This document shows positions 2,635 through 57,518 of a stretch of 64,000 nucleotides of DNA, in pieces. The notes beneath the pieces were generated by a model that saw nothing but the letters and a program-made list of their open reading frames with translations, did not search any database and had not been told where the DNA came from. Origin of the DNA: Rhizoctonia solani (Eukaryota; Basidiomycota; Agaricomycetes; Cantharellales; Ceratobasidiaceae); assembly GCF_016906535.1 (NCBI RefSeq), contig NC_057383.1, positions 1,674,001 through 1,738,000 of the forward strand, written 5' to 3'. The position numbers and the translations under genes are program-made. Each line of letters begins with the position of its first letter. Within the stretch, counting starts at the first letter, position 1.

Positions 2635-2642
2635 GGAGCTAT
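2635..2642. repeat. Left 8-bp target site duplication of the KDZ element
   Basis: GGAGCTAT directly abuts the outer end of the left terminal inverted repeat. The same eight bases directly follow the right repeat at 14812-14819. Eight-base duplications are known for Zisupton/KDZ-class transposons. Confidence 0.93.
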
Positions 2643-2878
2643 CACCTGTGTCTCGAAGACCCCAGAGGCTAAAAGCCTTCCAGGGACAGCTGACCAAGCA
2701 GGCCATTTAGCGTTGAGTTCCTGTGGGATTCGGCCTCCGGGTTCGTCAGAAAAGATTGCGGTCCTTGGTAGGAATACAAGCTACTTGAATATTGTATTTA
2801 CTGTGATTTATATAAATGGTTTTAATAATCATTATCCCTCGGGGGCCGTCCGATCCCCGCCGACACCGTGCCGACGCC

Positions 2879-2932
2879 ATCAGATTGATCATCGCTTCCG
2901 ACGTCTTCGAAGCGATCATCCCGCCATCTGAT
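2879..2932. repeat. Subterminal imperfect palindrome in the left TIR
   Basis: Two nested inverted pairs: ATCAGAT (2879-2885) with ATCTGAT (2926-2932), and a 12-base arm (2887-2898) with its partner (2909-2920, one mismatch). A GACGTC-containing loop lies in the centre. It lies about 240 bp from the transposon end and recurs in the right repeat, so it could be a protein-binding site or a structural element. Confidence 0.6.
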
Positions 2933-3160
2933 ACCGATTGATGCCGCCCTCACCGTTGGTTGCGGCGATCCCTACCTCCGTGGTTAAGCGCCGCCCGCCT
3001 CCTGCCCGCCTCCCGCCTTTGTTTACCGCGGAGATAAGCCCCGCGGGATTACGCCATCGCCCCAACGGCTTGACGATGACGCGATATGGGCGCTCAGTCC
3101 ACCGTGGACCTGTCAATTGGTAAGCGTTGGTAAGCAGGTACCAAGCTCTTCTAATGACAG

Positions 3161-3460
3161 CTATTCATTTGACCGCGAGATAATATCCCCCCTCGACACC
3201 GACATTCTCCCCGCCATCGTCTCTCCCCTGCCCTCCACCGCCTCCCTCAGAGGGTACTTCCTATGGTCTCCGCTCTGATTTTCACTCGTTTGCCCTTGCT
3301 CGCTTGTATGTATTGTGTCTACTACGTCCGAGCTGGCTATGTCGTCTGGACTATCGTCTGAGCTGTCTTTCTCGCTTGCGTCCGTGTGTGTCCCGACGAC
3401 GACCTGTGTGCCCCCGACTACCTCGGGGACTGACGGCTGGGAGTTTTGTTTTGCTCGGTG
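3161..3460 (-). other. Acidic Ser/Asp-rich open frame within the left TIR (possible exon)
   Basis: A 99-codon open frame ending in TAG, identical to the one in the right repeat (13994-14293). The translation has a compositionally striking stretch (DASEKDSSDDSPDDIASSD) and then DHRKYPLREAVEGRG, which looks like real protein rather than chance translation. It has no ATG at its start, so it would have to be a last exon or a relic. No family recognised. Confidence 0.35.
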
Positions 3461-4131
3461 TTACTACATACACGGCTCGCGGTAAGTTCTACTCATCGAT
3501 GTAGCCGCTTATCCTGACGTTGCCGTTGACCAGATCGCTCCCCCGTCGGCGTTATTTGTTGGTACCAGTAGTGGTATGTGTATTGCATGGCAAGTTGATT
3601 CCGTGCATCGTCATCGTTAATGATGCGTTCGCTGACGCTGCTCACGTCCAGCATTCCTCATTGTCTATTCGGTCATCTGTGTCGCCCTCGTAGACGACGA
3701 CTTACTTGGTTGTTGTACTAAGGTACGTACAGCTGTCTTGATGTCTCCACCATCACCGATTCTAACGTAATCAATATCCCAGTCCCCACCGGTACATGGT
3801 CGACGCCTCGTTGTGAATGTAAGTTCATACATATTACATATTACATTGGCTCCCTCACTGAAACGATTCCACCAAACAGACGCATCTGTTTGCTGTGCCA
3901 AACCTCCCAACCTCGCCTTCCGTAACCGTGTCCAGTATACCGTCGTAATGACTATACGACGCAGTATCGCCCGTGTGCTGTCGTGGCTACTCGCAGCTCA
4001 GACGCCCATTGCCCCCCCCCTCCACCTCGAACCCACCGACTCCACGCCCCTCCTCGTCGCCGACCTTCTCGTCCCAGACGCCGTCGTAATGCCCGTTCGT
4101 GGACCACCTGCCCCTCGTTCGTACGCTGGAC

Positions 4132-4761
4132 ATCGCCATGCCCCAATGGTGTCGTAGATTCTTTTATTTGCTCACGCTTGCCCTGATGGGTTGTGTGCTG
4201 GGTGACGTCGCAATGTTGGCGTGCAATCGGGTGGCTGGGGGAGGGAGGGGCAGTGTCCCATTGTGCCTCACCACGCTCGCAAGTACTGACTATGACGTGC
4301 GGACATTCCACATTCCGTTTGCGCATAGCTGTTTATTGGACGCTGGACATTATCAGGATGCTTGCGAAATGGCTACTATTATCTGCGACCTCTAGTTGTC
4401 TCGTTTCTATTCGATTGTTGTGTAGATTACGCCTGCTGATTTTCAATTACATTATTTTGTCTGTCTACTTATGCGACCCATAAGTTCATCCAACCGGTTC
4501 AAATCAGTTTAGCTTTTTGCCTTGCGCTTATATAGGAGTAAGCCAACGTCTGGGATCTACTTGCTAATAGATGACTTTACCTTGCATCCACTCTATATCT
4601 TGTAATGCTTGAATACCTTACACAAAGTAGTCAATTTTCGTTCTAAGTACATGCCTCGGAAATATACTTTACGAAAAACAACAAAAATGTCCAAAAATAA
4701 ACAAGGCAAAAACAAATATACCACACGCAAAACTCCAGCTAGGAGCGCTCAGTCGATTAAA
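4132..4761. other. Unique transposon interior without a gene
   Basis: Between the inner border of the left repeat and the stop codon of the first passenger gene. The right part is AT-rich and presumably holds the passenger's 3' UTR. No convincing coding sequence; the small plus-strand open frames lack splice or codon support. Confidence 0.5.
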
Positions 4762-6295
4762 CTAGTCGTCCTCACCATCCGAATCTGTTGTTGACGAGCG
4801 TTCACCGTCCGAATCATCTTCAGGTGGTTCAGACGCCGCTTCGGACTCAGAATCATGGATAATTTCACGGGATTTGACCTTCCCGTTCTTCCTCTTAGCC
4901 TTGGCCACCATTTCGGCTTTGGGAGCCTTGCGCTTGCAAGAGTCATTGCGAGAGACCCCAGAATCCTCCGTAGTTGGAGGGTCTACCGATCCTTTCTTGA
5001 ATTCGCTACCAGGGACCGGAATGTATGGTGCGGGGGGGATTTCGGTATCGTAAGCCATGGCCTTGTCGTACTTCAGCTTCCATTCGTTGTGCGAGTCAGC
5101 AGGCAGCTCCTCGAAGCGCCAAACTTCGGACGCAAGCTTGTTATCAGCATGCATCAGCCCCTTTATACCCCCGGGGAAATCGCTGGGCCGGACCATCTGT
5201 CGCCCATTCGAGGTAACAGGATAGCCGACAAGGACAATACGGTAGTCATATACCATTTTGTCATAATTTGCGTACTTGACACAACTAATAGTTGAAGGGT
5301 TGATTCCGATCTTCTCAAGTGTGTTGGCTAGCAAAATATTTCAATGAGAAACAAACATATCCACGACATATAACGAGGGTGGATGGCTTACAAAGAGAAT
5401 TTTTTAATCTCGTACGAACGCTGCTACGAAGTGCCTGTTTTTTGCCCTGAATCTTGGTGACTCCGGCTATTGCATGCGCAAACGTCAGATTTTGCGAGAA
5501 TAAGAATAAAAAGTAGCTTACTGGCTTCCTTGCCGATAACATAGAAATCCAGGTGCGTCAAAAGGTCTTTCATCGGCATATTCATATGGCCTTGTAGGAA
5601 GGTGTCGACCTTGTCGGAGCTAGCATATAGGGGAGCCATGTCGTCCTCAAGCTTTCCGCGTGTCGTGACAAGCATATATTGAAGTCCGAGTTTATTATGC
5701 AGAGTTTCAAGCTATTTATCTTTGAATATAGTCCATGATGATCTAAGTATTACATACCTGATTATGTATCCGCACAAGGTCATCTTGTGCTGATGTTACT
5801 GCCTGTTTCCGAGTGAGACCGGTGGTTTTCGAATCCTTGTTTTTAGCTCGTGTCTTTGCAGCTAGCTCTGCATATCGAGTCTTTTCTTCGTCGGTAAGAT
5901 CGTGGGCAAGTCCCTTCTCACGAATCTGTTGGGCCACCCAAGAGAGGTACTGTCGACCCGGTCCAACTAAGACAACATCAGGTAAGCTTGTTTCTTTCAT
6001 GGCGTTGATTGGATAGGTACGACCCACCGTATTCTTGCTTCCATTCGGAGGATTTCTCGGCTATCAAGCCGTTCCACCACATAGGCGAGCGCTGTTCTCC
6101 AACTGGGGAGATCAAGGTGAAGCGTTGGAAGACGTCGTCTTTTGGGACGCCCATCTCGGTAGCCACAACCTCAATGTGAGCCCGTAGAGCAGCATCGGCT
6201 TCAGTTGCCGCTGTGTTGATGCGTCGGTTGGTGGCGCGTTGTTGACGCCGCTTTGACACGGGTTCAGGGGGTACGAGCGCTGCTGCCTGGGACAT
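4762..6295 (-). CDS. KDZ-element passenger gene 1, nuclear-type protein of unknown function
   Basis: Five exons joined by good splice sites, start ATG at 6293-6295 (MSQAAALVPPEP), stop TAG at 4762-4764. Exon 1 has a basic stretch (SKRRQQRATNRR) and the segment MWWNGLIAEKSSEWKQEYG. Exon 2 gives GPGRQYLSWVAQQIREKG then LTDEEKTRYAELAAKTRAKN, loosely like helices of HMG-box proteins, though I would not assign that domain. Exon 3 holds LETLHNKLGLQYMLVTTRGK. The last exon has a conserved-looking block (YDYRIVLVGYPV, then FPGGIKGLM and WRFEELPADSHNEWK). The C-terminus has a Lys/Arg nuclear-localisation-like cluster and a long Ser/Asp/Glu tail ending DSDGEDD. It lies within the transposon, on the transposase strand. 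Function unknown; a DNA- or chromatin-binding accessory factor is an inference from charge pattern and context. Confidence 0.7.
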
Positions 6296-7108
6296 TAGAA
6301 TTATCAATAGTAAGCGGTGAGTGAGGGAATGTTCGAAGAGTGAAGCAACAAATGCTGCTGTGTTATATCGTACATACTTAAGTTTGTTCACTTTGTCATA
6401 TAGACAGCTCATCCCTTAGTCGATTGTCAACAGAAACATGTACTGATTGACGGTCACCCAATTTGGTACAAAAATAGACGGATTTAGGAGTACCGAATAC
6501 AGGCAACAGCTAAGTTTGGTGGTAGATTCCCCTGTCCAGTCATTTCCGAGTCATCAATCAACTGGTGGGGTTCGGAGGTTGTTTGTCAAACTTTGCCATT
6601 ATGTATGGTACTTGTTTTTGTGTGCGATACGACCGCTAGTTTGTTGTGTTATATTTATGACATTGTCTCGGACTTTTACCGCGTGGAATATATTTTATGC
6701 TTGATAAGTGGGCTTTTACAAAATTTTCTGGAACGCGATACGGTAATAATACGAGGGAACAACAAAAATCGTCCAAAAAACCACGAGTGTGGTACCAAAA
6801 TTGTAATAGTGCAAACGCAGCCCTGCACAAGCAATACTTACGACAAAAATCGAGCCTAGCTATCTCCTATTAAACTGCCGAGACTTGGTCTGCCACAGCA
6901 TTCATAATTTCTGCAAGGCCCTCTGCAGTAAAATCACCTAGAGGATACAACGTAACGTGAGAGAATTCCAGGTGGTTTGAGCTGGTCACGTACTGGATGC
7001 AAGCAAGTGAAGGATTACTTCGGTACAAACCTGGGATTCGACGCTGGGGTCCCTGTTGCGCATGTTGCTGAGAATGCGCATACGATGACGGGCCTCGCGA
7101 CTAACAAT
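6296..7108. other. Spacer between passenger genes 1 and 2
   Basis: AT-rich inter-gene sequence of the transposon: upstream region of passenger gene 1 and 3' flank of passenger gene 2. The open frame of gene 1 extends upstream to an alternative ATG at 6410-6412, which I consider less likely than 6295. No other gene is supported. Confidence 0.45.
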
Positions 7109-8264
7109 CTACACGATAACGAGTGAGTCGAGTACCAAGGTAAGTACTATCACATTGCGTACTTGTGATTGGCTTGTTGATTCCTGGGAGCCGGTGAGTT
7201 GTAGGCTACTACAAATCGACGTCTGCGAGCTGGTATATTGCTGTGAGCCCGATGGCTGATTGTCAGGAAGCGAACATTCAGGAGAGCGTTCGGGAGATGA
7301 CATGGCAATTGTGGGACTCGCGACGTATGTTGATCGATGAAAGACCCATCTATCATCGTCGCCACGAGAAACCCAAGTTGAGGGTTGGGGGGAGGGAGGG
7401 CGCGAATGCGCGGTGGCGATGGTTGGTGGAGGCGGGGACACTTGGCTGATACGACGTGTGGCTGCGGCCCTTCCTCGAGCACTGGGATGGGAGCGTATCT
7501 CGTGAGCGGATGTAGCAGAAGGTGGCGCGGCATTAGGAATTGTGCCTGCCAGCTTGCTAGCAGTGGTATTGGATTGCGAAGGTGCCTCTGGGGCCACACC
7601 AGTACCTGAGAGAAACGGGTTGAGTTCGTTGTTGTCGTCACAAGTATGGCTGAGGGCGTCATCGTTCTCGTTGTCACTAAAGTTGGCACGAGGGATCATA
7701 AGGACGTGGCTAAGTCGAGGTTCACGACCAGTGTACGGTAGGATAACATCGTTATCATTGTAGATTATGGTAGTCCCACGGGGGTAAAGAGCAGAGAAAA
7801 TTTCGCCAGATAAAATTTGTCGGGGTGGGCATGGTAGTTCGCCAAGTTGAGCGGCGGCATCATCTACACGTAGAGATCTTGTTAAAACATCCAGAACTTT
7901 TGAATTGTGCATATACCATTGAGTCTAATACCAGTCTCTCGAAACCAAACAGCGGCGTTCCAGAGGGCAAATCGAGCGAATACGGGGTCGACGAACTTGC
8001 GAGCCACGCTTGATTTTAACAGAGTATGTATGTATGTCCTAATATTTATTGTTGGTAAGTTTTTCCTTGACTTTGTGCGTCGACATACCAATCGTCAGAA
8101 TTGTAGACACCGTTTACAACGCCACAGTGCACCCCAAAGAATGGCCCTCCTTGCTTTGCTGTGGCCTACAAATGCGCTGTAAGTCTATGTATTACATCTA
8201 CATCGTGAAAAATGCAAACCTGTTGGGGAATCTCAATAGTTAAACCAGTGGGTACGACTGCCAT
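7109..8264 (-). CDS. KDZ-element passenger gene 2, viroplasmin/RNase H1 N-domain-like start with disordered tail
   Basis: Likely four exons. Start ATG at 8262-8264 (MAVVPTGLTIEIPQQ). A TTTGTAG acceptor leads into GGPFFGVHCGVVNGVYNSDDW, then after an intron VARKFVDPVFARFALWNAAVWF, and a final long exon ending at 7109. The pattern of a small beta strand with GVY-S--W followed by ARKF and an Ala-rich helix resembles the caulimovirus viroplasmin / RNase H1 N-terminal domain, which binds RNA-DNA hybrids. This is similarity by eye, not a confirmed match. The remaining 250 residues are Ser/Pro/Thr/Gln-rich and probably unstructured. The exact intron inside the domain is uncertain. It lies between passenger gene 1 and the transposase, on the same strand. 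Confidence 0.5.
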
Positions 8265-8656
8265 TGTGGTATTGACAAGGGTTAGAGGCGGAGGGAGAGT
8301 GACAGAGGGGGTAGCAGGCAGCTCAACGAACCAGGGCCAAAACTAAATGACCACGACGAGGCAATTGTATTGTCTACCGAGATTCAATACAGCAGGCACA
8401 ATAAGGTCTACGGATATTCGTGAATGAGGCATTTACAAGCTAAATTGGGAGTCGATTTTACCTGTTGGGTGTAATCGCCAGCCGCCGAATCAATCTATCC
8501 CTTGGCAACGTCAAAATGATTTGCCAGTGCGTCAATCCCTACGGAAGTGGTGCAATAAAGCAATAAGTGAATTCTCGAAGCACTTCAAGTGACACTTGTG
8601 CATACCCATATGTGCTTTGGAGCAATGGCAACCAAATGAGAGCATTCTGGCATCTC
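8265..8656. other. Upstream region of passenger gene 2
   Basis: No gene recognised. It should hold the promoter of passenger gene 2; the nested MITE begins immediately after it. Confidence 0.4.
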
Positions 8657-8830
8657 TACAGGGTCCCCAAAATCTCTGGAGCGCTCTAGAGTGCTCCGGT
8701 TTTGGGAACCTCCTTGTTAGGATCCAACGGAGCACTCCACGAGCACTTCTGAGCGTCATAGTAGACACTCCGGAGTGCTCGCCAACAATAGCAAGTCTCG
8801 GAGCGCTCCCAATATTTTTGGGACCCCGTA
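8657..8830. mobile_element. Nested MITE (170 bp) with TA target duplication
   Basis: The body at 8659-8828 begins CAGGGTCCCCAAAAT and ends in the near reverse complement (ATTTTTGGGACCCCG). The terminal repeats match at about 23 of 28 positions. A TA dinucleotide flanks each end (8657-8658, 8829-8830), as in Tc1/mariner/pogo-type elements. The interior repeats GGAGCGCTC/GAGTGCTCC motifs that can fold back. It has no coding capacity. It lies between passenger gene 2 and the transposase inside the larger transposon. Confidence 0.75.
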
Positions 8831-9332
8831 GAAATGGTCAAGAAAGTTATTGATTCGTTTGGCTCAAAGGCACAACTTAGAGTGGAGTTCATACTTGCCT
8901 ATATTTTATTGAATTGGTGCAGCCATCCGATATGAGTTTGTCATAATTCCGCAGCCATGTGAGCTCACGGCCCACACGTATTCAAGGAAGATCTTTGTTG
9001 AATTAAACTTTGATAATGACGTGTCATTCTTTCAAGTGCTGATCATGAGGACAAATCAAATTAAAATTTGTTCACACCCGGTATGTAGCACACATGGCCC
9101 TGCGCCAATATCTTTGACGCCGAAATGCTTGCCTCTCACTTGTCCCGCTTTTCCTCTTGTTGTCTCCTTCTCTTTCTCTCTCGCCGTTACTCTTTGGTTT
9201 GCGCGTTTTGTAACAGTGTTTTTTGTTTGTATTACCACAAGCGGTTTGCCTTGTTTGCATGTAGCTCCTGTTCTCCGCAATAGAAGTGTATTCAAAAATA
9301 AATAAATATGTAGCACACATATCATTCAATCA
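8831..9332. other. 3' flank of the transposase gene
   Basis: AT- and pyrimidine-rich spacer (for example CT-rich tracts around 9125-9190) that probably holds the 3' UTR of the transposase. The overlapping open frames on both strands at 9021-9329 look like composition artefacts. Confidence 0.4.
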
Positions 9333-12300
9333 TCACTGCGACTGGCAACATGTTTCAAATGCAGTCAGTGCATCATGAGCTGCCTCCGGAAACTCATCAT
9401 CCATGAGAGAATCGTCCACCAGTCCTGCATCTTCCGTGTCACCCAAAGCAAGGTTTGGCTCTAACGTTGTCTCCGGGGTGTTGTTTGGCTGTGGATCACC
9501 AGCTTTGGTTGAATCAGTACAGTGTACTCCTACGCCCAACGAAAGACTTCCTGAGAACTTCTTCAGTTTGGCCAAGTCCTCAAGGTCTTTTTTAACACGT
9601 TGGTTAACTTGTTGTGTAAGCTGGAGGCGATCACAGAGAATATGGGCAAGGTTTGGGTTAGACAACTTCAGTACTTCACACTGAGCCGATAAAAAGGCCT
9701 CCTCGTCGCGAATGTGGGTGAGTACTCGAGTTATTTCAATATTGAGCCGGATAATCTCCTCTTCAGCACGTTGAATACGTTGCCATAGCTCAACGCAACG
9801 CCGATTCACAGGGCGACTCCACTCCGCTTCCAGTGTACCGTGTTCAGAGTACTTCAAGAAGTCAAAATTAGCGAGGTAGGCGTATTCGGAGAGTTCATTG
9901 AATGAAATAATTGGTCGCGGAGGGTTGACAGCCTGGGCAGCAGCATTGTATTGATTTAACGCTGTATTCAACGCTTTTTCCCTCCGTTTGATAGCTTTTG
10001 ACATTTGGACACGAGCTTTGTAACCTACACTGATATGTCAGACAACGGACGAAACCCAAACAAGATACTTGCCTGTTCCAATTGCGTTTGCTTTTTCAAG
10101 CTCGGCAATACGCTGAATGACTAGCAATTCAAGCATACGGAGAGCCTCGTGGTAATCCTCCAAAGCCTCACGTTCAACAGCTGCTTCCCACTCCTTACAT
10201 CCAGGTGTCCATCGGGGATTAATAGCATGCTCTTGTTCCAGGCGTTCAACTTCAGTCTGGATGACTAAGAGCTGCTCGGAGGCGGCCATCCGCTGTGCCT
10301 CAATCTTTCTAACTTGAGTAGCAATACCATGCTGATATTCATCCTCTTGCTCGGTGTTTTGGATGGAAGGATGCTTGCGGTAAATATCAATGTGACTGGC
10401 AAGTGTATGAGCCATATTGGTTGAGAATGCATCAGTGAAGGCCTTCCTAATTACAATGTAAATTAAACATAAAAGATTTGAATAATATACTTACTTTTTC
10501 TCAGCCAAAACTCGAAGTCGCTTCACGTAATGCATTGCAAACAAGCTTTTGGGGGTTGGATCTTTAAGTGCCTCAAAATGCTGTTTTTCTGATTCAAACA
10601 TGGCACGCCAGTCATTGTCGCTTTTTCCGCGACCAAGTTTGAGCAATTCCTTGGGTAAAGTTGACATGATGCGCAGTGCTGAAGTATACCGTCCTTTTAA
10701 AACTGAGCCTACTCAGGAAATAAACAATTGGCGTGTGATAGTAACAAAAAAGGCTCACCTATTGCGCAACGGCGCCCAAAATCCCACCCTTCCAGATGTA
10801 ATGCTAGGAGTTGCCGCCGATGGTAGCTGGAAGCATGACGAGTCGTGCGAGCAACCGAATTGGATGACGAGAACAGCTGCTCGTTCTCCTCAAAGGACTC
10901 TAATCCCGCACCCTCAACGTTTAACGGGTGATTTGCTAATTGGCACTTCCGGTTGTGAGCATACCCGTGGAACGATCCAACAACAAAATTAGTGTTATGA
11001 CGGCGCACCACAGGCCCAACAAGCGGGCTGCGTTCCGCTGTGCCACGAAAAGTGCACCCAATGTCATAGCCAATGAGAAGGTCGTCGCCAAATACTTGGC
11101 ATAATCTGTCAACAGCTGCAAGTGCATACTTTGCCCTTGATATTGAAATGTGTCATCGATGTTCCCCAATAATCATCAAAATAAAATAAAATATATAGAA
11201 ATACTCACAGTTCACCCGACTGACGCATGTCCTCTACAAGTAGGACGAAGCCGTGACGGCATGAGGCTACAAAAATCCCGGTTTCATCGAAGACCACAAT
11301 TGACTTTTTATTGTCGTCGGCGCGTGCATTCTTCCATCGTTCGTGACAGGCCGTACTTGTGGATTCCAAACCATCCGCGCCCTCATCCACGCCTAATAAT
11401 CGGGCTGATTAGACAATAGAGTGCTAAATTGAATCCAATACCCTAGTAATACATGAGATGGGGATAAGCAAACCATATCATACCTCCCAACAAAGTACAC
11501 TCACTGGTTCTTGGTTGGTATCGCTGACATTTGCTTTAGATGGAGCTATCTGTTTGGGGATCCGGGTTGTCAAAATCTGAGTAAAGTACAGGAGATTAAG
11601 TGCTACGTTACCTGCGAAGCCACTGTATTTTTGGCCTTGGGCCTACGTGGCACCTCATTCTCAAATCTGTCGACATACTGGGAATCAAGAAAATAACTAT
11701 GGTCGAACTTTCGGCAATCAACGGTGCAAGACGCAGCTACACGCTTGATCGAATCGTTTCCGTCACATGTACACAACACCGAAAATTTGAGCTTTGGTTC
11801 ATTCTTTAACTGTGAGTCCGTAATTAAGTGATAATCGTGAGAAACTACGCAGTACTTACACGATAACTACATGCCGGGCATGTGTTTGCCATCCTCCAGT
11901 CAGGGTGGTCTCGCGATAGAGCTTTGTCGAGGTTTGCTTCGGCCATCCAATGGATTATTAAATAATAATCAATCGCGGCAGAGAGTTGCTTGCGTATATG
12001 GGGTGTATAGATAGTCTGAGGAGAGAAACGATAATGAGTGTATATACGATGAGGCAAGACAACTACCCACCCTGTGCATGTCGCAGATGGCGGTCGCGAT
12101 ACCCTGTATACTGATAGTAGATGCATGACGTCGTAGCGCGACACAAAACCTCAGCAAGTCAACGTGTATTGCGCAGGAAGGCAGGGAAGGGGTCGGCGCA
12201 AAGTAACCGTGGCGTGCAAGGGTTACAACTCGAGGAGTACTAGCGTCAGATGTGAACGTGGTCCATACTTTGGCTGTAAATAATGAGCCAATGGTTAAAT

Positions 12301-12977
12301 GTTCGATAAAGGATAACTCACTCGTGAAATTGATACACAATATGGCAAAAGACCGAGATTTCGATGATGCCGCAGGAGATGTTGGGGATGCTGGATCGGA
12401 CAAGGGAGCTCCGGTACGATTATACTCCAAATAAGCTTCGTAAACTTGATCCCGTGTTTGACCCCATGAGTATTCTTCCCGGGTAAACCGCTCAGTCCAC
12501 GATTGTGAGAGAGCCTTGAAACCAATCCGACGCAAAATAGCGACCGAGATCGACTCGTACCCTCCCTCGGGGTCATCAAACCAGTCGTCCTCGGTGTTGT
12601 CGTCAGCGGGTTCACCCGTGTCGATAGGCTCCCAAGTGCCCTCGGAAAAAGCACCACTCCATCCAACCTCATTACGAATTGCTTCGACGTCTTGCCGACG
12701 GCTGGCCGGGTGACCTGGATTCCAAGCATTCAAATCAACAATATGGTGCATGGGGATGAGAGTACTTACTTTCAATCAGGGCGTGGTAAGATTGTTGCAA
12801 CGTTCGAGTGCGACGATCGAAAACGCGCCCACTAATTTCCTCAACTTTACTAGGAGTCAATAACGACCTACTGCCGCCCCTCGCTGAAGTCTTAGTCGAA
12901 TAAGGGGATGGAGATACACGGAAATGTGTACTACTTGAGACCTTGCCACGATGTACTCTCTTGGGGAGCAGGGACAT
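9333..12977 (-). CDS. KDZ transposase (CxC2-associated type), apparently intact
   Basis: Catalyses movement of the surrounding element. About ten exons join in frame from ATG at 12975-12977 to TGA at 9333-9335. In order: a basic start (MSLLPKRVHRGK) with the usual PSPYSTKTSARGG; a zinc-binding-type segment ending CPACSYR (about 11880); the catalytic-core motifs DGNDSIKR (11741-11764), FDETGIFVASCRHGF (about 11260), YALAAVDRLCQVFG, GYDIGC (11054-11071) and SFHGYAHNRKCQ (about 10940-10975); then GAGLESFEENEQLFSSSN. The helical C-terminal half has NDWRAMFESEKQHFEAL and AVNPPRPIISFNELSEYAYL, followed by a Glu/Asp-rich end. These blocks are the hallmark of basidiomycete Kyakuja-Dileera-Zisupton transposases. 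I saw no stop or frameshift. An alternative start at 13014-13016 would add 13 residues. Inverted repeats and target duplications around it fit its role. Confidence 0.9.
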
Positions 12978-13321
12978 CCTGTGAAGTATGTGGGAATGTA
13001 GTTTATCTACACACACCAGTTGGTCCCGTTATATACGAAGTATACCAGGGCATAGTTGTAGAGTTTTCTGTACAGTCGACTTATGGACAGCAGGTTCCCA
13101 AAACGGTCGTTGAAGATCGATTAAATTGAAACAACGTGGATACAAACAACAAACACAAGCAGACAAACAATGGGGCCAAGACGTACAGTGGGGATGTGCG
13201 CGTACGACAACAACTAGGGTGGGAGAGATTTCCTTCGCCAGGTAATGTAGCGTTGACCTGCATACGAGCGAAGTTGCAGGGGATGAGGCCTTGCCGACCA
13301 TCTGGTGACCAGTCTCACGAC
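12978..13321. other. Transposase promoter region inside the right TIR
   Basis: Unique sequence between the transposase start codon and the inner border of the right inverted repeat; presumably the transposase promoter and 5' UTR. No clear TATA box or other motif stands out. Confidence 0.4.
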
Positions 13322-13993
13322 GTCCAGCGTACGAACGAGGGGCAGGTGGTCCACGAACGGGCATTACGACGGCGTCTGGGACGAGAAGGTCGGCGACGAG
13401 GAGGGGCGTGGAGTCGGTGGGTTCGAGGTGGAGGGGGGGGGGCAATGGGCGTCTGAGCTGCGAGTAGCCACGACAGCACACGGGCGATACTGCGTCGTAT
13501 AGTCATTACGACGGTATACTGGACACGGTTACGGAAGGCGAGGTTGGGAGGTTTGGCACAGCAAACAGATGCGTCTGTTTGGTGGAATCGTTTCAGTGAG
13601 GGAGCCAATGTAATATGTAATATGTATGAACTTACATTCACAACGAGGCGTCGACCATGTACCGGTGGGGACTGGGATATTGATTACGTTAGAATCGGTG
13701 ATGGTGGAGACATCAAGACAGCTGTACGTACCTTAGTACAACAACCAAGTAAGTCGTCGTCTACGAGGGCGACACAGATGACCGAATAGACAATGAGGAA
13801 TGCTGGACGTGAGCAGCGTCAGCGAACGCATCATTAACGATGACGATGCACGGAATCAACTTGCCATGCAATACACATACCACTACTGGTACCAACAAAT
13901 AACGCCGACGGGGGAGCGATCTGGTCAACGGCAACGTCAGGATAAGCGGCTACATCGATGAGTAGAACTTACCGCGAGCCGTGTATGTAGTAA

Positions 13994-14293
13994 CACCGAG
14001 CAAAACAAAACTCCCAGCCGTCAGTCCCCGAGGTAGTCGGGGGCACACAGGTCGTCGTCGGGACACACACGGACGCAAGCGAGAAAGACAGCTCAGACGA
14101 TAGTCCAGACGACATAGCCAGCTCGGACGTAGTAGACACAATACATACAAGCGAGCAAGGGCAAACGAGTGAAAATCAGAGCGGAGACCATAGGAAGTAC
14201 CCTCTGAGGGAGGCGGTGGAGGGCAGGGGAGAGACGATGGCGGGGAGAATGTCGGTGTCGAGGGGGGATATTATCTCGCGGTCAAATGAATAG
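13994..14293 (+). other. Acidic Ser/Asp-rich open frame within the right TIR (possible exon)
   Basis: Counterpart of 3161-3460: 99 open codons ending in TAG, same translation. Upstream on this strand, 13760-13800 reads YEGDTDDRIDNEECW in another frame before a GTGAGC donor-like site. The repeat may therefore preserve a multi-exon gene or its relic. Confidence 0.35.
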
Positions 14294-14521
14294 CTGTCAT
14301 TAGAAGAGCTTGGTACCTGCTTACCAACGCTTACCAATTGACAGGTCCACGGTGGACTGAGCGCCCATATCGCGTCATCGTCAAGCCGTTGGGGCGATGG
14401 CGTAATCCCGCGGGGCTTATCTCCGCGGTAAACAAAGGCGGGAGGCGGGCAGGAGGCGGGCGGCGCTTAACCACGGAGGTAGGGATCGCCGCAACCAACG
14501 GTGAGGGCGGCATCAATCGGT

Positions 14522-14575
14522 ATCAGATGGCGGGATGATCGCTTCGAAGACGTCGGAAGCGATGATCAATCTGAT
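14522..14575. repeat. Subterminal imperfect palindrome in the right TIR
   Basis: Mirror copy of the hairpin at 2879-2932, about 240 bp from the right end of the element. Confidence 0.6.
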
Positions 14576-14811
14576 GGCGTCGGCACGGTGTCGGCGGGGA
14601 TCGGACGGCCCCCGAGGGATAATGATTATTAAAACCATTTATATAAATCACAGTAAATACAATATTCAAGTAGCTTGTATTCCTACCAAGGACCGCAATC
14701 TTTTCTGACGAACCCGGAGGCCGAATCCCACAGGAACTCAACGCTAAATGGCCTGCTTGGTCAGCTGTCCCTGGAAGGCTTTTAGCCTCTGGGGTCTTCG
14801 AGACACAGGTG

Positions 14812-14819
14812 GGAGCTAT
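14812..14819. repeat. Right 8-bp target site duplication of the KDZ element
   Basis: GGAGCTAT, identical to 2635-2642. Confidence 0.93.
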
Positions 14820-15232: not shown

Positions 15233-17350
15233 TCAATAGACAAATCGAAATCCCTTGCGTCTATGCTGGATTTCTTCCGTTGAAACTTCTTGTGTTTCCA
15301 CTGCGTCATCGACAAAATCCCTCATGTCGCAAATGCCATCGACTTCCTCTCCTCTCTCGAGTCGACTACGAACTCATTATTCTCAAGATACCAGAAACAC
15401 AATATATCAGCCACACACCTATTTAAAGATATTAGATGTTGTCTGAAAGCGAAGCACATAGTGATGGTCAACCCAAAGCATGCGGTACATATCCCATATG
15501 AGTTACGGTACTGCGCAAAGCTTTCGGTTAAAATATTGCCTGAACTATAAGCCAAAAAACTTGCCGTATTTCCCCACTTGGTCGGCCACACATATGATCC
15601 AGATACGTTTCCTAGTTGAGAGAATGAATTAATGAGCGCCAGCGCAACAGCTCGTTTCGAGGGTGGACGCGGCAACGAATTTGAGCACCATGCCCAAAAA
15701 ATGATAAATCCCGCATAAGATTGCGCCATCTATAATACCTAAGAAATTAGGACCATCAAGGAACTTCAAAGAATACGTACTAAGAAAAGGGCGATGTAAC
15801 GTGCTGCCACATTCATCGTCACTTCAGCAATAACGAAACCAATAATACCGACGAGATATGAACCGGCGATATGTAAGAATCGTTCGCCAGTTTTATCAGC
15901 ATGTCGTGAACAGATAAACGAAACAACTCTTGGGGAGTGTCAATGCGCGGTCGTGTAGCAAAGCACTGGTTCACTTACGATGCAAACGCCCATGGCGGCG
16001 CGCATAACAATAGAGAGATAGTACGATTGAAACCGAGGGTTGATGTAAGGGCTGAAAAGGAATAAATCAGCGTGAAGTCCGGGTCAATGAAAACTTAATG
16101 GCGTACTTGGGAAATACGAGTTAAAGCTTAATCCAACAACTTGCGCGGTCAATGCGACAGAAAGCCACCAGACCTTCCAGTCCTTGACAGTAAGAATAAA
16201 CCCATAGAATGGTCCTTCCGTACTAGAGTCGTGATCAGCCTCTCCGCCAGCGTCCTATTCATAGTTTCATATTTAAAATCTTCAAATGCTGATGTTCCTT
16301 GGACAATTTACTATCAAAAACACTTACTTCGATCATACGCAGCTCTGCGAGCCTCTGTTCTATCGGAGATAGCCACCGACTACTTGTACTCGGAAAGTCC
16401 GGAAGTACAAAAACAGCCAGAATAGCCACTGCAATTGTAATCGCGCCCTCCAAGTAGAATAACCAACGCCAGGCAGCGTGACCTAATTTCCCCTCCATAC
16501 CATCTAGAATTCCAGCCGCAAGTAGACCGCCGAAGGCATTTGAAGAAAGACTTCCACAGTAGAGTATTGCGGTCCGTAAGCCGAGTTCTTCTCGCTTATA
16601 CCATTTAGACAAAATGAAGAGTGCTCCGGGAAAGAATGCGGCTTCGACAAAGCCGAGGAAGAAGCGGGTTAGAAGTGCTGGAACAAAACTGCAAAAAGCC
16701 AAACTGTTCAGTCGACCTTGAATGTGACACTCATGCGATACGAAATCACATCACCTGTGTGTGATACCTGTAAGGCACGAGATTCCTCCCCAAAGTATCA
16801 TGCATACAGGAAGGTACAAGGAGGGTTTTCCTATATCTGTGAAAGTATTATTAATACGCTTCTTATCGCATATCTCTGACTTGCAATTTAAGAACATGTT
16901 ACTAGGAAACAATGATTAGTTTGCCAAATCAGACGCAGCTATGAGCTCGCATACCTAGGCACCTGCATTAGAATGTATCCTACATAGAAAATCGAAAGGA
17001 TGGTTGCAAATTGCTGGCCTTGAAGCCCTAGGTCTTCTTCAAAGCCCCGCAGTCTTGCCGCAGCTGCATTGTTCCTATCGATCTGCCCGTTGAAAGAACG
17101 AGCGAGGTGAACTCAGGTTTACGTCTCCCATACTGCAAGAGCCTACACTGTTTAAGATGTATATGATCACCATAATGCTCATTCGAGCGTCTATCTTGCG
17201 CACTAGTTTTCTTTCTAATTTTCTCCGCTCCTCGGTTCCACCAAACTCGGCGTCGTTGTCAATGCTCGCCTCTTTGAATGGGATGCTGGACGTTCTACTT
17301 GTCTCAAGGTGTTTCACCTCTAAGCTTGCCTCCTTGTCGACCTCAGACAT
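15233..17350 (-). CDS. MFS transporter, allantoate/nicotinate permease type (anion:cation symporter family)
   Basis: Plasma-membrane importer of small organic anions (Dal5/Tna1-like); substrate not predictable. Start ATG at 17348-17350 (MSEVDKEASLEVKH), acidic N-terminus, then the first membrane segment (SIMVIIYILN) and the typical DRNNAAAARL and ILSIFYVGYILMQVP blocks. The middle has RFFLGFVEAAFFPGALF, LSKWYKREELGLRTAILY, SNAFGGLLAAGI and WRWLFYLEGAIT. A later exon gives NSFSQLGNVSGSYVWPTKWG and the last membrane helix (FGLTITMCFAFRQHL). A final intron with acceptor TTCGTAG restores the frame to a charged tail ending RRKGFRFVY, stop TGA at 15233-15235. The first intron's borders are unresolved; the family's usual YLDRNN junction falls there. 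Confidence 0.82.
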
Positions 17351-51683: not shown

Positions 51684-51951
51684 TGTAGAAATCTCTTGTA
51701 AGTACTAGAACAATCTAGTACGTTCTTACGCAGTAATCGAGTCAAGTGTCGAGTCACTTGGTACATGCGCAGTAGAAAGCGCAGCCTTCTACGGTATGAC
51801 TCGAGAGAGTCCATAAGGTATATATAGCCCTACCAAGGCTCTTATACCGTATCTCTCTCTACTCACTTAACTCTCTGTCATTACTCTTTACTTAACACGA
51901 CTTGTATTAGTTACAGTATATACATTTGTCTATTAACGATCTATTTCTACA
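51684..51951 (+). repeat. 5' LTR of the Copia element
   Basis: 268 bp, TG...CA ends within a perfect 9-bp terminal inverted repeat (TGTAGAAAT/ATTTCTACA). A TATATATAG sequence near 51820 is a likely promoter. Confidence 0.93.
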
Positions 51952-51963
51952 GGTTATGAGCCC
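51952..51963 (+). other. Primer binding site (initiator tRNA-Met half-molecule type)
   Basis: GGTTATGAGCCC directly follows the 5' LTR. It is complementary to GGGCTCATAACC, the anticodon stem-loop region of initiator methionine tRNA (anticodon CAT). This is the arrangement known from elements primed by a cleaved half-tRNA, such as Drosophila copia. Confidence 0.6.
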
Positions 51964-52026
51964 CGCTTGTACGCTTTATAACCTAAAGTAAATAGATAGA
52001 TATATATACTTACCTGTGTACACATT

Positions 52027-54486
52027 ATGGCCGATAATACTGCTAGTACATCGACCAATACTGGTATCAGCGGCTTACACCGGATACCATCCCTACGAGG
52101 GACCGAGAATTATAATGTGTGGCGAATACAAATGGAAGACATACTCACAGATCTTGATTTGTTCGCACACGTCAATGGTACCAAACAGCGACCTAACAAA
52201 ACGATAAATGTAAAGTTAACAGGTCGAAAGGATGCCAATAATAAGGACTTACCTGACCTTGAAGTTGGCAATGAAAATCCTGAGTATACATCGTGGGCTA
52301 AAGACGATCGCAAAGCCTTATCGAACATACGTCTCCGAGTCGACGGACACGTACTAACGCATATACGAAGCTGTGAATATTCTGCAAACGCTTGGCAGAT
52401 CCTGGAGGCAACATATCAGGTTCAAGGCACCGTCGGATTAATCGACTTACGGAGAAAATTCTTCAGTCACCGAATGACCGATGGAGAAGACGTCGAGGAA
52501 CATATCCAACGTATGCGCGGATGGTTCCAACAAATAAACTCAATAAGCCCTAACTCGTGCACCGAAATCGACTGGATTACGACGCTCATAGCGAGCCTAC
52601 CTGACTCATGGGATAGCTTTACGCAGTCCGTAAGCTTCCAATTCGACTCAGCAGACACAACCAAGCTAACAACTCAAATAAGCGACTTACGTTCACGAGT
52701 CTTAGCCGAAGCTCACCGGCGGAACACTAGGAGCAATGAAGGAAAGGCTTTCTTTAGTACAAACAAGCCTCTGTTCAATAGAACCGTACGTACCAATTCG
52801 GGTCACAAAGGACCGGATAAATCGAAGTCCAAATGCAATAACTGCGGGAAGATAGGCCACTGGGCAGCCGAATGTAGAGGCCCGGGTGGTGGTGCATACA
52901 AACACAGTCAGAACAATAAGGGGAATCAGACGAACAGGAAGTTCAACTCACCAAACAGACCCCGGAACAATAACGCCCGCGCGCATATAGCAGTCGCAAA
53001 TAACGATACTAATGACTACGCGTTCTCGAACTTCGAGAACATTCCCGAAGGCCTACGTAAAGCCGCGAACGAATGGATAGCCGATAGTGGAACGACGACT
53101 CACATAGCAAATAATCGGAACTCTTTTTCCGACTATAGTAAGACATCTGGTTATGTAACCGGCGTAACCGGTAAAGAGCCGATCTTGGGCCGAGGCACCG
53201 TAGAACTGGAATGCCTGATTAATAATGATACAAACGAATATAGGACAATTAGGCTTACAAACGTAGCTCACGTGCCGAGCTCCCCGGCTAATTTGATAAG
53301 TTTATCACTAGTCACAGATAAAGGCTATCGAGTCTCAATGGACCGAGACCAATTAGTAATACATGGTACAAACAATGAAGTGATCACCTATGGTTCGAAG
53401 CTCCGAGACCGTGATCAAGGAAGTCTGTGGAAAATAAATGCTAAGGCAGTTAGCAAAACAACGGCAAAACAAAAGGCTCAAAATGTACCCACTGAACTGG
53501 CGCTAGTTAAACAAACTGGTCGAACTTGGCTCGACTGGCATAGAGTACTCGGGCACATCGGCCCGCAAGCACTCCAACGAATAAAGAATACAGGCGCAGT
53601 TAGCGGAATGGAAATAGCGGAAGATAAGGACGGACTCAACTTCGAATGTGAGTCCTGCATTCAAGCGAAGGCGCATACACGCCCATTCCCGAAGGAATCA
53701 ACCACCAAAACGAACAAAATCGGCGAACTCGTAGTGACCAATGTATGGGGACCCGCCCGAACCCCCTCAATCGGACGCTATAAGTATTATGTATCATTTA
53801 CGGATGTAGCCACTCGTTTCACGCGTTTAGGATTCTTGAGGCACAAGGACAAAACTTTGAATGAATATAAATTGTTCGAAGCCATGCTAAATACACAAAA
53901 GAATAAGAAAATTAAACGCGTACAATTTGATAACGGCGGGGAATTTGTGAATAAGGAATGGGAAGAGCATGCAGCACAGAAAGGGACCGTTTTAGAAACA
54001 ACGGCCCCGTACTCATCTCAGCAAAACGGTATCGCTGAACGATTAAACCGTACACTTACCGATAAGGCCCGAGCAATGCTACTCGAGTCAGCAGCCCCGA
54101 AGTTCCTTTGGAACGAGGCTATCGCGTACGCATGTTATCTCAAGAACCGCGTACCTACGCAAGTGCACGGTAAGTTCTGGAAAACACCGTTTGAGGCGTT
54201 TTGGGGAAACAAACCGGACGTTAGCGTGCTGCGGCCTTGGGGAACCAAGTGCTACGTACTCGACCAAGGCGAGAACAGGTCCAAATTGGACCCGAAGACC
54301 TTCACGGCAACATTTGTAGGAATATCGGACGCTCAAGGTAAGAGCTGGCGTTATTATAAACCCGGAGCTAATCGCATATTGCACTCACGCAATATATTGT
54401 TCCCTAGGAGTCATGCGACCATAGAAGAGGTCGACGACAGTACCGATTGGGGGGAATTGGTCGCTCCGCCCGCTGAGGGGAGATGA
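52027..54486 (+). CDS. Copia Gag-protease-integrase polyprotein (first part of pol)
   Basis: 819 codons from ATG 52027. Residues about 1-230 are the Copia-type Gag (YNVWRIQMEDILTDLDLFAH). A CCHC zinc knuckle CNNCGKIGHWAAEC starts at about residue 270. The protease active site is IADSGTTTH (about 351-359). The integrase zinc region is WHRVLGHIG...CESCIQ (from about 503). The integrase core has FDNGGEF and GIAERLNRTL. At the place of the first catalytic Asp the sequence reads VVTNVWGP, with Asn at residue 572, codon AAT at 53740-53742. The frame ends TGA at 54484-54486, and the next open frame begins at an overlapping ATG (54483). Copia elements normally have one continuous gag-pol, so this is either a frameshift or a frameshifting site. 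Confidence 0.9.
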   Translation: MADNTASTSTNTGISGLHRIPSLRGTENYNVWRIQMEDILTDLDLFAHVNGTKQRPNKTINVKLTGRKDANNKDLPDLEVGNENPEYTSWAKDDRKALSNIRLRVDGHVLTHIRSCEYSANAWQILEATYQVQGTVGLIDLRRKFFSHRMTDGEDVEEHIQRMRGWFQQINSISPNSCTEIDWITTLIASLPDSWDSFTQSVSFQFDSADTTKLTTQISDLRSRVLAEAHRRNTRSNEGKAFFSTNKPLFNRTVRTNSGHKGPDKSKSKCNNCGKIGHWAAECRGPGGGAYKHSQNNKGNQTNRKFNSPNRPRNNNARAHIAVANNDTNDYAFSNFENIPEGLRKAANEWIADSGTTTHIANNRNSFSDYSKTSGYVTGVTGKEPILGRGTVELECLINNDTNEYRTIRLTNVAHVPSSPANLISLSLVTDKGYRVSMDRDQLVIHGTNNEVITYGSKLRDRDQGSLWKINAKAVSKTTAKQKAQNVPTELALVKQTGRTWLDWHRVLGHIGPQALQRIKNTGAVSGMEIAEDKDGLNFECESCIQAKAHTRPFPKESTTKTNKIGELVVTNVWGPARTPSIGRYKYYVSFTDVATRFTRLGFLRHKDKTLNEYKLFEAMLNTQKNKKIKRVQFDNGGEFVNKEWEEHAAQKGTVLETTAPYSSQQNGIAERLNRTLTDKARAMLLESAAPKFLWNEAIAYACYLKNRVPTQVHGKFWKTPFEAFWGNKPDVSVLRPWGTKCYVLDQGENRSKLDPKTFTATFVGISDAQGKSWRYYKPGANRILHSRNILFPRSHATIEEVDDSTDWGELVAPPAEGR

Positions 54487-56807
54487 CTTGCGCTAACAGC
54501 GCTGCGGAACGACCGAAGGAAGATGCTAGAACAGGGGGAGAACATGTAGTAAGAAAAACCGAGAAAAATGAATTAAAAATCGAGAGCGAACCTGAGAGTA
54601 TAAAAGAAGAGGTGAAAGTCGAACCAACATCATCCAACTCATCTACTGAACCTGTTCGACAACCTGCACTACACAAACCTACCACCTCTCGCTCTAGGTC
54701 TGCTATGCGCCCTAACCTTAGTGCTACGGCTGCTGAATCGCTCAAAAGAATCAACTCACTTACTACCGGGAGCTACGACGGCGTTTGAACACGCCGACAG
54801 AACCCAAACGCCCCCGCGATCTCACTCAGCAAGGAACATGGCAAGCTCGAGATCAATGTCGATGACACCTCCCCATCCGGTCAGTTTAATCCTAGCATAA
54901 GGAACGAACAAACTAACCTAGCTCTAGAAATCTCCGATATATTCACCGGCTCCAGCGACGCCAACAGCTCCGACAGCAAGATCAACTACTCATACGATCT
55001 CCCCACTGACGACACCTCCACCTTACTCTCCGCACCTTCCATCCCGTCCGAGTACGCCTACGCATTGGAGACGCCGACAACACCCAAATCGACCTCGACT
55101 ATCAACGATAGACTGGTCAAGAGATTCAGCCATCTCAGGCTATCAGACGCGACTCCAACCGAGCCGGATTCCCCCTTGGCGTCGACCGGGGATCTGGAAC
55201 AACCCTGGTCCCTCGCGGCCATTACCAAGGCGGCCGACAACCCAACCGTGGAGGAGGCCCTTGCGGGACCACAGGCACTCGAATGGTGGAAGGCGATGCA
55301 GAATGAGGTCAGTACCTTTGACAAACTAGACACGACCGAACTCACCGAATTACCCTACGAACGCAAGGCAATGGGGAACAAATGGGTTCTCACGCTCAAA
55401 CGCGATGAGAACGGTGAACCGGTACGCTATAAAGCACGATTAGTCGTCCAAGGTTTTAGCCAACAGCCAGGTATCGACTTCGATAAGACATTCGCACCTG
55501 TTGTACAATTAGATTCCATTCGTACACTTGTATCGCTTGCTAACAACAACGACTGGGACGTCTGACAGCTAGACGTCAATGCCGCCTACTTACACGCACC
55601 TATCGAAGAAGACTTATACATGCGACAAATTCCTTACTTCAACGACGGTACGGACCGAGTTCTTAAACTCAAGCGATCTATATATGGACTGAAACAAGCA
55701 GGCCAAATGTGGAACAAATTTTACGATACCAAACTCAAGACAATCGGTTATAAACCTTGCCTTACCAACACATGTGTCTACCAACGTATCCAAGAATTGA
55801 ACGGTGAGCAATACGTATCCATTATTGCCACCCACGTTGATGACTCAATCGTAATTACATCGACAAACCACACTGACTTCGCAATATCAGAACTCCTGAA
55901 CATATTCAATATGCGCGACTTAGGCCCCATTCGTCACTTCCTGGGTATCACATTCAAGCGCGATCGTAAACAAGGAATTATGCACCTTAACCAAACCGCA
56001 TACATCAACAGCTTAGCCGAATTCGCAGGTCTTAAAGATGCTTACCCCGCCGACACTCCACTCAGCCCTAGTGTTCAGCTTACACGTTTCGAGGGCACCA
56101 AACCAAAATTTAACTATGGGACTTACATTGGTAAGCTCCTATATGCGGCCTTGTGTACCCGTCCTGACATCGCATTCGCCGTCGCACACCTTGCTCAATT
56201 CACTTCGTGTTACGGACCGGCACACGTGACTCAAATCAAACGTGTCATTCGCTACCTCTTAGGCACTCCGACGCTAGGACTTACGTATCGCCGATCAGCC
56301 GAAGACTTCGGCGAAATCGGTTATTCCGATGCTGACTGGGGAAGCAACCTCATAGATCGTAAGTCCGTCTCCGGTCATGTCTTTATGCTTGGAGGCGCTG
56401 CGATTTCTTGGTCAGCTAAGAAGCAGGCCACAGTCGCATTGTCGACTATGGAAGCCGAATATATGTCGTTGGCACACACATGTACTCAGGCTCTTTGGCT
56501 TCGTCAATTCTTTGAGGAATTGCACTTATACGCCGACGCCCCTACTCTCATATTGTCCAATAATATCGCCGCATTAACATTATCCGTAGAATCCCAATAC
56601 CACGGACGCTCAAAGCATATCGATATACGACACCATTTTATGCGCGATATCATCGAGCAACGTAAGGTATCTACCTTGTACGTACCTACTCATGAGAACT
56701 TAGCCAACGCTTTTACTAAAGCTCTGCCGGCTCCTCAATTTAGGTATCTCATGCGATCAATCATGGGAGAGATTACGGAGACGTCGATCGAGGACGAAGT
56801 TGATTAA
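54483..56807 (+). pseudogene. Copia reverse transcriptase/RNase H region with in-frame stops
   Basis: Frame 0 continues the polyprotein after a one-base backward shift. It is interrupted by TGA at 54786-54788 (in a Ser/Thr-rich linker) and TGA at 55563-55565, inside the reverse transcriptase, just before QLDVNAAYLHAPIEEDLY. Upstream of that stop are AMGNKWVLTLKRDENGEPVR and KARLVVQGFSQQPGIDF. Downstream are SIYGLKQAGQMWNKF, the HVDD catalytic box and RNase H (YSDADWG, TMEAEYMSL, SKHIDIRHHF). The third RNase H acid is Asn in LSNNIAAL (56559-56561) where DN is usual. Last stop TAA near 56805. Each stop could come from CGA, and each Asn from GAT, by CpG transition. Confidence 0.85.
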
Positions 56808-56940
56808 CCAAATCAACTTAATCAATCATAAATAGCTGTATAACTGAAAATAGTAAAGCCATGTATATGAACGGCCATTGGTTTCGAAATATGATTGAAT
56901 TTATTGACTCGTCTTTAATGTATCTACACTTAACTCGCTT

Positions 56941-56949
56941 AAGGGGGAG
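56941..56949 (+). other. Polypurine tract of the Copia element
   Basis: AAGGGGGAG immediately precedes the 3' LTR; primes plus-strand synthesis. Confidence 0.8.
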
Positions 56950-57219
56950 TGTAGAAATCTCTTGTAAGTACTAGAACAATCTAGTACGTTCTTACGCAGT
57001 AATCGAGTCAAGTGTCGAGTCACTTGGTACATGCGCAGTAGAAAGCGCAGCCTTCTACGGTATGACTCGAGAGAGTCCATAAGGTATATATATAGCCCTA
57101 CCAAGGCTCTTATACCGTATCTCTCTCTACTCACTTAACTCTCTGTCATTACTCTTTACTTAACACGACTTGTATTAGTTACAGTATATACATTTGTCTA
57201 TTAACGATCTATTTCTACA
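56950..57219 (+). repeat. 3' LTR of the Copia element
   Basis: 270 bp, identical to the 5' LTR except for one additional TA within TATATATATAG near 57085. Confidence 0.93.
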
Positions 57220-57224
57220 GTTTA
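57220..57224. repeat. Right 5-bp TSD of the Copia element
   Basis: GTTTA, matching 51679-51683. Confidence 0.9.
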
Positions 57225-57518
57225 TATGGATCTTTAGCGGATATCTAGGCTCTTTTTCTTCTTAAAATACAATCCCGTTTTCCTTGCACCTCCTTACTTA
57301 ATAGTAGAAACAATAAACTCGACCATGCGCGCTTTCAAGCCTCATGCATAGGTGAAATGGAAAATGCAATACTTGACTAATCCTGATGACCACAAATGAA
57401 TCCAAGTATCCATTCTACGACAAATTCCAAGGAGAGCGCCAAATGTGAGACTTATTCCCCACCATGCTACAAACTTCGGACGCCAGGCAGCGCCCACTCA
57501 CCATTCCTTTCGCCCACA

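Follow-up and report, generated by a model that had tools for sequence, protein, structure and literature searches.

Transposons of the KDZ superfamily have been described from several fungi, and the closest counterparts of the element treated here are three from Cryptococcus neoformans, all of which have KDZ and CxC1 domains and were caught inserting into FRR1: KDZ1, of ~11 kb, with 241-bp terminal inverted repeats (TIRs) and 8-bp target-site duplications; KDZ2, of ~9.2 kb, with 139-bp TIRs and 4-8-bp duplications; and KDZ3, of ~10 kb, with 169-bp TIRs and 4-8-bp duplications (PMC12810828). Duplications of 8 bp are also reported for Zisupton and for Zisupton-1_PGr, a Puccinia Dileera, and two fungal Kyakuja families have 7-bp duplications and no TIRs, the Kyakuja termini being CA..TG (PMC12730594). 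In addition, KDZ and Plavaka elements of Marasmius oreades have had their TIR motifs characterised (PMC8290104), KDZ insertions are recorded at mating-type loci (PMC12510652), and in Pleurotus ostreatus 36 transposons of KDZ type are reported, some truncated and others seemingly intact, with CxC2 preceding the intact ones (PMC7641404). Here, we describe a KDZ element of 12,169 bp from the plant-infecting fungus Rhizoctonia solani AG1-IA RhiXN, whose genome of 40.7 Mb comes as 16 contigs, the RhiXN.1 assembly being one of 16 chromosomes (PMC8992008). It occupies positions 2643-14811 of the window, by which we mean the whole stretch of 64,000 nucleotides that was analysed (C14:1674001-1738000, contig C14 being 2,094,219 bp long), and we consider it, with a probability of roughly 0.93, to be a complete and structurally autonomous KDZ-superfamily DNA transposon.

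Borders, terminal repeats and transposase gene

The element lies between two exact copies of an 8-bp direct duplication, which abut the ends of two long inverted arms directly and without mismatch, and it encloses a KDZ transposase gene read from the minus strand:

2635-2642: left target-site duplication, GGAGCTAT, exact match with 14812-14819
2643-4135, plus strand: left TIR, 1493 bp, 99.87% identical to the reverse complement of 13318-14811
9333-12977, minus strand: KDZ transposase gene, 11 exons, 1028 amino acids, open spliced frame with a Pfam KDZ match
13318-14811, minus strand: right TIR, 1494 bp, pairing with 2643-4135
14812-14819: right target-site duplication, GGAGCTAT, exact match with 2635-2642

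An earlier note on this DNA had placed the borders at 2643 and 14811, and the exact duplication at the TIR ends supports that placement; its 8-bp duplication and near-perfect repeat identity were likewise confirmed, and the TIR length that it called unusual does exceed the fungal KDZ values compared here (139, 169 and 241 bp, and none in the two Kyakuja families). For scale, random pairs of 8-mers drawn from the window were identical in 55 of 2,000,000 draws. The arm alignment holds two differences in total, a C9/C10 homopolymer and an A/G difference three bases from the inner edge, and one further inverted repeat was found in the window, a 182-bp pair at 76%. Both element ends open with CACCTGTGTCTCGAAGACC, a 19-mer that, with up to three mismatches allowed, has seven matches in the genome, the two exact ones being the element ends themselves; because the terminal pattern read backwards, used as a control, gives nine, the five inexact matches are at chance level. 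The 400-bp flanks of the element are unique in the genome. Direct repeats within the TIR, which would be candidate sites for the transposase, amount to a single, chance-like 15-mer pair, and the observed/expected CpG ratio, which is 1.18 for the left TIR, 0.96 for the interior and 0.94 for the flanks, gives no sign of CpG depletion.

The KDZ identity proposed in the earlier note is upheld by a full-length match to the Pfam KDZ family (PF18758; 217 of 217 positions at E 4.1e-71, scoring 239.6 bits where the cut-off is 26.6). Ten introns are proposed for the gene, nine GT-AG and one GC-AG, and the reading frame, which has no internal stop, is unbroken only once they are spliced out, so that the transposase gene described earlier as unbroken is indeed open, but only after splicing of the 11-exon model. 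Putative catalytic residues were located at D336, D501 and E556, the enzyme being presumably RNase H-like with DDE chemistry; across an alignment of 12 sequences the two aspartates never vary and the glutamate hardly does. The annotated protein RhiXN_11148 (P0011) differs from residues 32-1028 of our model by one mismatch and 44 gap positions, and its public model begins inside the right TIR (13318-14811). We judge this start to be an over-prediction and suggest 12977 as the true one, because the relative P0012 begins at MSLLP as the 1028-residue model does; in P0014, unlike P0012, the MSLLP motif is preceded by an N-terminal extension particular to that protein.

Genes B and C and their recurrence in relatives

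The element carries three co-oriented minus-strand genes, of which KDZ comes first, then B, then C. The transposase gene had been found already, but genes B and C, which bring the number to three, were not listed in the earlier description:

6870-8264, minus strand: gene B, 6 exons (8264-8220, 8165-8089, 8038-7917, 7863-7163, 7108-6994, 6937-6870), 375 amino acids, spliced frame equal letter for letter to RhiXN_11147 (P0040)
4762-6295, minus strand: gene C, 5 exons (6295-6028, 5966-5758, 5711-5522, 5466-5392, 5327-4762), 435 amino acids, open spliced frame, near-identical to RhiTH_003229

The proposed introns measure 50-56 bp in gene B, 46-64 bp in gene C and 35-96 bp in the transposase gene. 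Gene C differs from RhiTH_003229 (P0001), which sits on a 1,784,637-bp R. solani contig, at 3 of 435 residues; since the RhiXN genome has a single C locus, a near-identical gene C, presumably together with its element, would exist in at least one other assembly, as judged from the locus tag and the contig. Its AlphaFold2 model, compared with known structures, weakly suggests an HMG-box-like and a MADS-like segment. For gene B, the predicted structure is of low confidence throughout (mean pLDDT 36), a Pfam scan of P0040 gave no match, and among solved chains there was one match, an irrelevant one at E 0.31. Among its eight relatives, weak and unrelated Pfam matches occur to HI0933_like in two (E 0.038) and to FlgE_3rd in one. 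An RNase H1 N-terminal (viroplasmin-like) domain was considered for gene B from the order of strands and helices alone; given the low pLDDT and the negative Pfam scan we do not adopt it, and leave it as a lead.

The searches for relatives required shared exact words, and for the transposase the best 7988 candidates by shared words were scored. This gave at least 29 matches, all 29 with a precomputed PF18758 assignment, of which 11 come from Rhizoctonia or Ceratobasidium and 18 from other fungi, presumably Agaricomycetes. For gene C the search gave 10 relatives, every one in Rhizoctonia or Ceratobasidium, as are seven of the eight found for gene B with an earlier 359-residue model as the query. 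Co-location was judged by contigs of the same size, mostly with neighbouring locus tags, which is an indirect sign of a single contig; by this measure two or three of the KDZ, B and C genes lie together on six contigs, that of RhiXN included:

RHS04_08975/08976/08977: C/B/KDZ, 10,877-bp contig
RhiXN_11147/11148: B/KDZ, 2,094,219-bp contig (this genome)
P0012/P0041: KDZ/B, R. solani, 11,336-bp contig
RSAG8_13514/13515 and RSOLAG1IB_11145/11144: C/B on both, the two contigs being those of 10,833 bp and 73,765 bp
CTheo_6666/6668: KDZ/C, 35,215-bp contig

The remaining relatives have no such gene pair, and many of them are on short contigs. Conservation in annotated relatives, several of which are partial models, is 40-69% to P0001 for gene C and 41-97% to P0040 for gene B. 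At the level of sequence, this conservation suggests that B and C are under selection, and the recurrence of the set supports a conserved three-gene element in the Ceratobasidiaceae.

In the mechanism that we propose, the KDZ transposase would recognise the CACCTGTG ends, excise the 12.2-kb unit and insert it at a staggered cut, the repair of which would leave the 8-bp duplications; an element so equipped may be active today. Gene C, and perhaps gene B, would be conserved accessory genes, probably helping to bind the long TIRs or acting in regulation. The long identical arms would most simply reflect a recent event in which one arm was copied over its partner, through repair with a template switch or through conversion, and not from the age of the insertion alone. 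A more ambitious extension, which we regard as rather unlikely, is that KDZ transposition in the Ceratobasidiaceae is a multi-component process, in which a dedicated DNA-binding protein C that the element itself encodes (HMG-like and MADS-like), protein B and the transposase act together and kilobase TIRs are kept identical by element-linked repair. Transposon systems with accessory proteins, for comparison, include En/Spm and MuDR.

Copy number, age and competing explanations

Several findings count against a complete and autonomous transposon. The search for further copies that the earlier note had proposed was run on this genome and came back empty: the left TIR has no second copy in it, the 9.2-kb interior (best 40 of 126 candidates) is matched elsewhere by short internal repeats only, and all genome matches of P0013, P0040 and P0005 fall within the element, with no further B or C locus. 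As no second copy came to light, the borders are defined from this copy alone, and nothing points to amplification. Two small repeats lie inside the element. The CxC1 match on transposase residues 206-262 reaches 13.8 bits, under the Pfam cut-off of 26.9 (the relative P0013 bears a UniRef entry name that reads CxC1-like). The junctions at 11612-11404 are the least certain of the transposase model, RhiXN_11148 skipping an exon there, and one proposed intron is 35 bp long at a place where the annotated model differs. A separate search of this genome with the joined 400-bp flanks and one GGAGCTAT recovered the element's own two flanks alone, and hence no paralogous empty site.

A search of the genome for the KDZ family gave five matches at three places, the other two being C14:1309401-1310200 and C15:829622-829984. 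Large inverted repeats nearby had raised the suspicion that these were sister elements, an idea that we rejected. With tblastn, the KDZ and B models and P0001 had no match at E 1 in either joined locus; once the C14 locus was enlarged and the limit relaxed to E 10, the best KDZ match had E 0.058 and fell on the KDZ place, those of B and C were at E 2.4 or higher, and the KDZ model does match the window itself by the same method. No target duplication was seen by eye flanking the C14 or C15 inverted repeats. By sequence comparison, both loci belong to a distant KDZ lineage.

The inverted repeats around or near these loci are of two kinds. At C14:1302072-1322981, arms of ~4.5 kb, inverted and 99.8% identical, surround the distant KDZ gene and contain internal repeats, and a further inverted pair stands at the left edge of the stretch around them. 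At C15:819647-822813, identical inverted arms of 1500 bp lie 167 bp apart and form a large near-palindrome.

How long the R. solani element has been in place is a separate question, on which its nested repeats also bear:

8653-8832, no strand assigned: nested repeat resembling a miniature inverted-repeat transposable element (MITE), at least 38 of the 43 rows of the interior search, between the transposase gene and gene B
9147-9309, no strand assigned: second short genome-wide repeat, 4 of the 43 rows, between the transposase gene and gene B

By eye, the MITE-like repeat has the TIR CAGGGTCC, a TA duplication and a mariner-type look, and the nearest among 19 compared copies match it at ~94% identity over two blocks that an indel separates. 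The earlier note had read recent movement from the near-identity of the TIRs. The ends of a long terminal repeat (LTR) retrotransposon are both copied from one template at insertion, so that their identity dates the event; in cut-and-paste transposition the arms are not copied anew and movement does not produce their identity. TIR identity is therefore no clock for insertion, and recent movement is unproven. What the near-identical 1.49-kb arms do indicate is a recent common origin or conversion, with which the insertion may or may not coincide.

The most serious alternative accordingly concerns age and leaves the KDZ identity untouched: the insertion could be old and static, perhaps silent, with no recent move, and its arms recently homogenised by gene conversion. 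We rate this as a real possibility, at somewhat under even odds. It would account for arm identity that cut-and-paste alone leaves unexplained, it agrees with the lack of a second copy in the genome, and it fits the ~6% that separates the MITE from the nearest of the 19 copies compared, while the two arms have no internal substitution, although that divergence may stem from the source copy and not from time since entry. Three open spliced frames and an 8-bp duplication without mismatch speak against it; these would suit an insertion made fairly recently but give no date.

The identity of the element itself has been weighed against two further explanations. In the first, a segmental duplication would by chance have left inverted copies on either side of a KDZ gene, and the arms would not be transposon ends. 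This view draws on the other long inverted repeats of the genome (~4.5 kb on C14, 1500 bp on C15), which by eye lack flanking duplications, but it is very improbable here, where the arms directly adjoin an 8-bp direct duplication, of a size that published KDZ elements also produce, and enclose a gene set that recurs in relatives, with DNA outside them that is unique in the genome. Near-identical inverted arms of 1.5 kb are difficult for short reads, yet an assembly artefact, in which the second arm or its near-identity came from a collapsed or duplicated arm, is scarcely credible when the C-run and a base near the inner edge tell the arms apart and the sequences that border them, inside as well as outside, are not the same.

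Setting of the element and comparison with known systems

To the left of the transposon, a neighbouring gene reads leftwards, with the Pfam family CARME (carnosine N-methyltransferase) matched in three of five frames scanned; its likely ATG is at 2543, 99 bp from the element, which lies upstream of it and, by this proximity to the start of a CARME-like gene, may affect its expression. On the right flank, one of three scanned frames (16259-16750) matches an MFS transporter. Farther along the window, at 51684-57225, stands an LTR retrotransposon with direct repeats of ~276 bp, 98.9% identical, and frames of 828, 258 and 413 amino acids, Copia-type by eye.

The locus offers a KDZ element whose borders are defined in full and whose genes are open, from a basidiomycete that infects plants, and its TIRs are longer than the published KDZ values compared here. 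It allows us to ask how long identical TIRs arise and, through the two further genes that relatives also keep next to the transposase, what accessory proteins contribute to KDZ elements. Among the matches listed in an open-access literature search, no title concerned KDZ elements of Rhizoctonia.

Compared with KDZ1-3 of Cryptococcus, as far as their published description extends, the R. solani element is similar in size (theirs being ~9-11 kb) and shares a KDZ transposase, TIRs and, with KDZ1, an 8-bp duplication, its match to their CxC1 region lying below the cut-off, whereas its TIRs of 1493/1494 bp are ~6 times as long as the longest of theirs (241 bp); mobility has been demonstrated for KDZ1-3, the Rhizoctonia element being known from its sequence, and genes like B and C go unmentioned in the parts of that description used for the comparison (PMC12810828). 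With the TET+ Dileera, Zisupton and Kyakuja elements, as outlined in PMC12730594, it has in common a KDZ transposase in Basidiomycota, with Zisupton and the Dileera Zisupton-1_PGr the 8-bp duplication, and with Kyakuja the CA..TG termini; as a difference from them, Pfam scans of 10 exon frames, the spliced KDZ and C frames, P0040 (gene B) and the B and C relatives brought up no TET/JBP family. Its TIRs and 8-bp duplication make it a poor fit to the two Kyakuja families of the same source. The KDZ elements of Marasmius oreades, so far as they are presented, likewise come from an agaricomycete (PMC8290104). Galileo, of the P superfamily, has long Foldback-like TIRs, with structural variation attributed in the account consulted to gap repair and template switching (PMC4168063); it shares the long TIRs and differs in transposase superfamily and host, and so serves as an analogy only. 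The earlier statement that intact fungal KDZ elements are seldom described was too strong, given that KDZ1-3 are reported to have been caught inserting (PMC12810828). Such elements are already known, and what is unusual in R. solani is the length of the TIRs and the conserved gene pair B/C.

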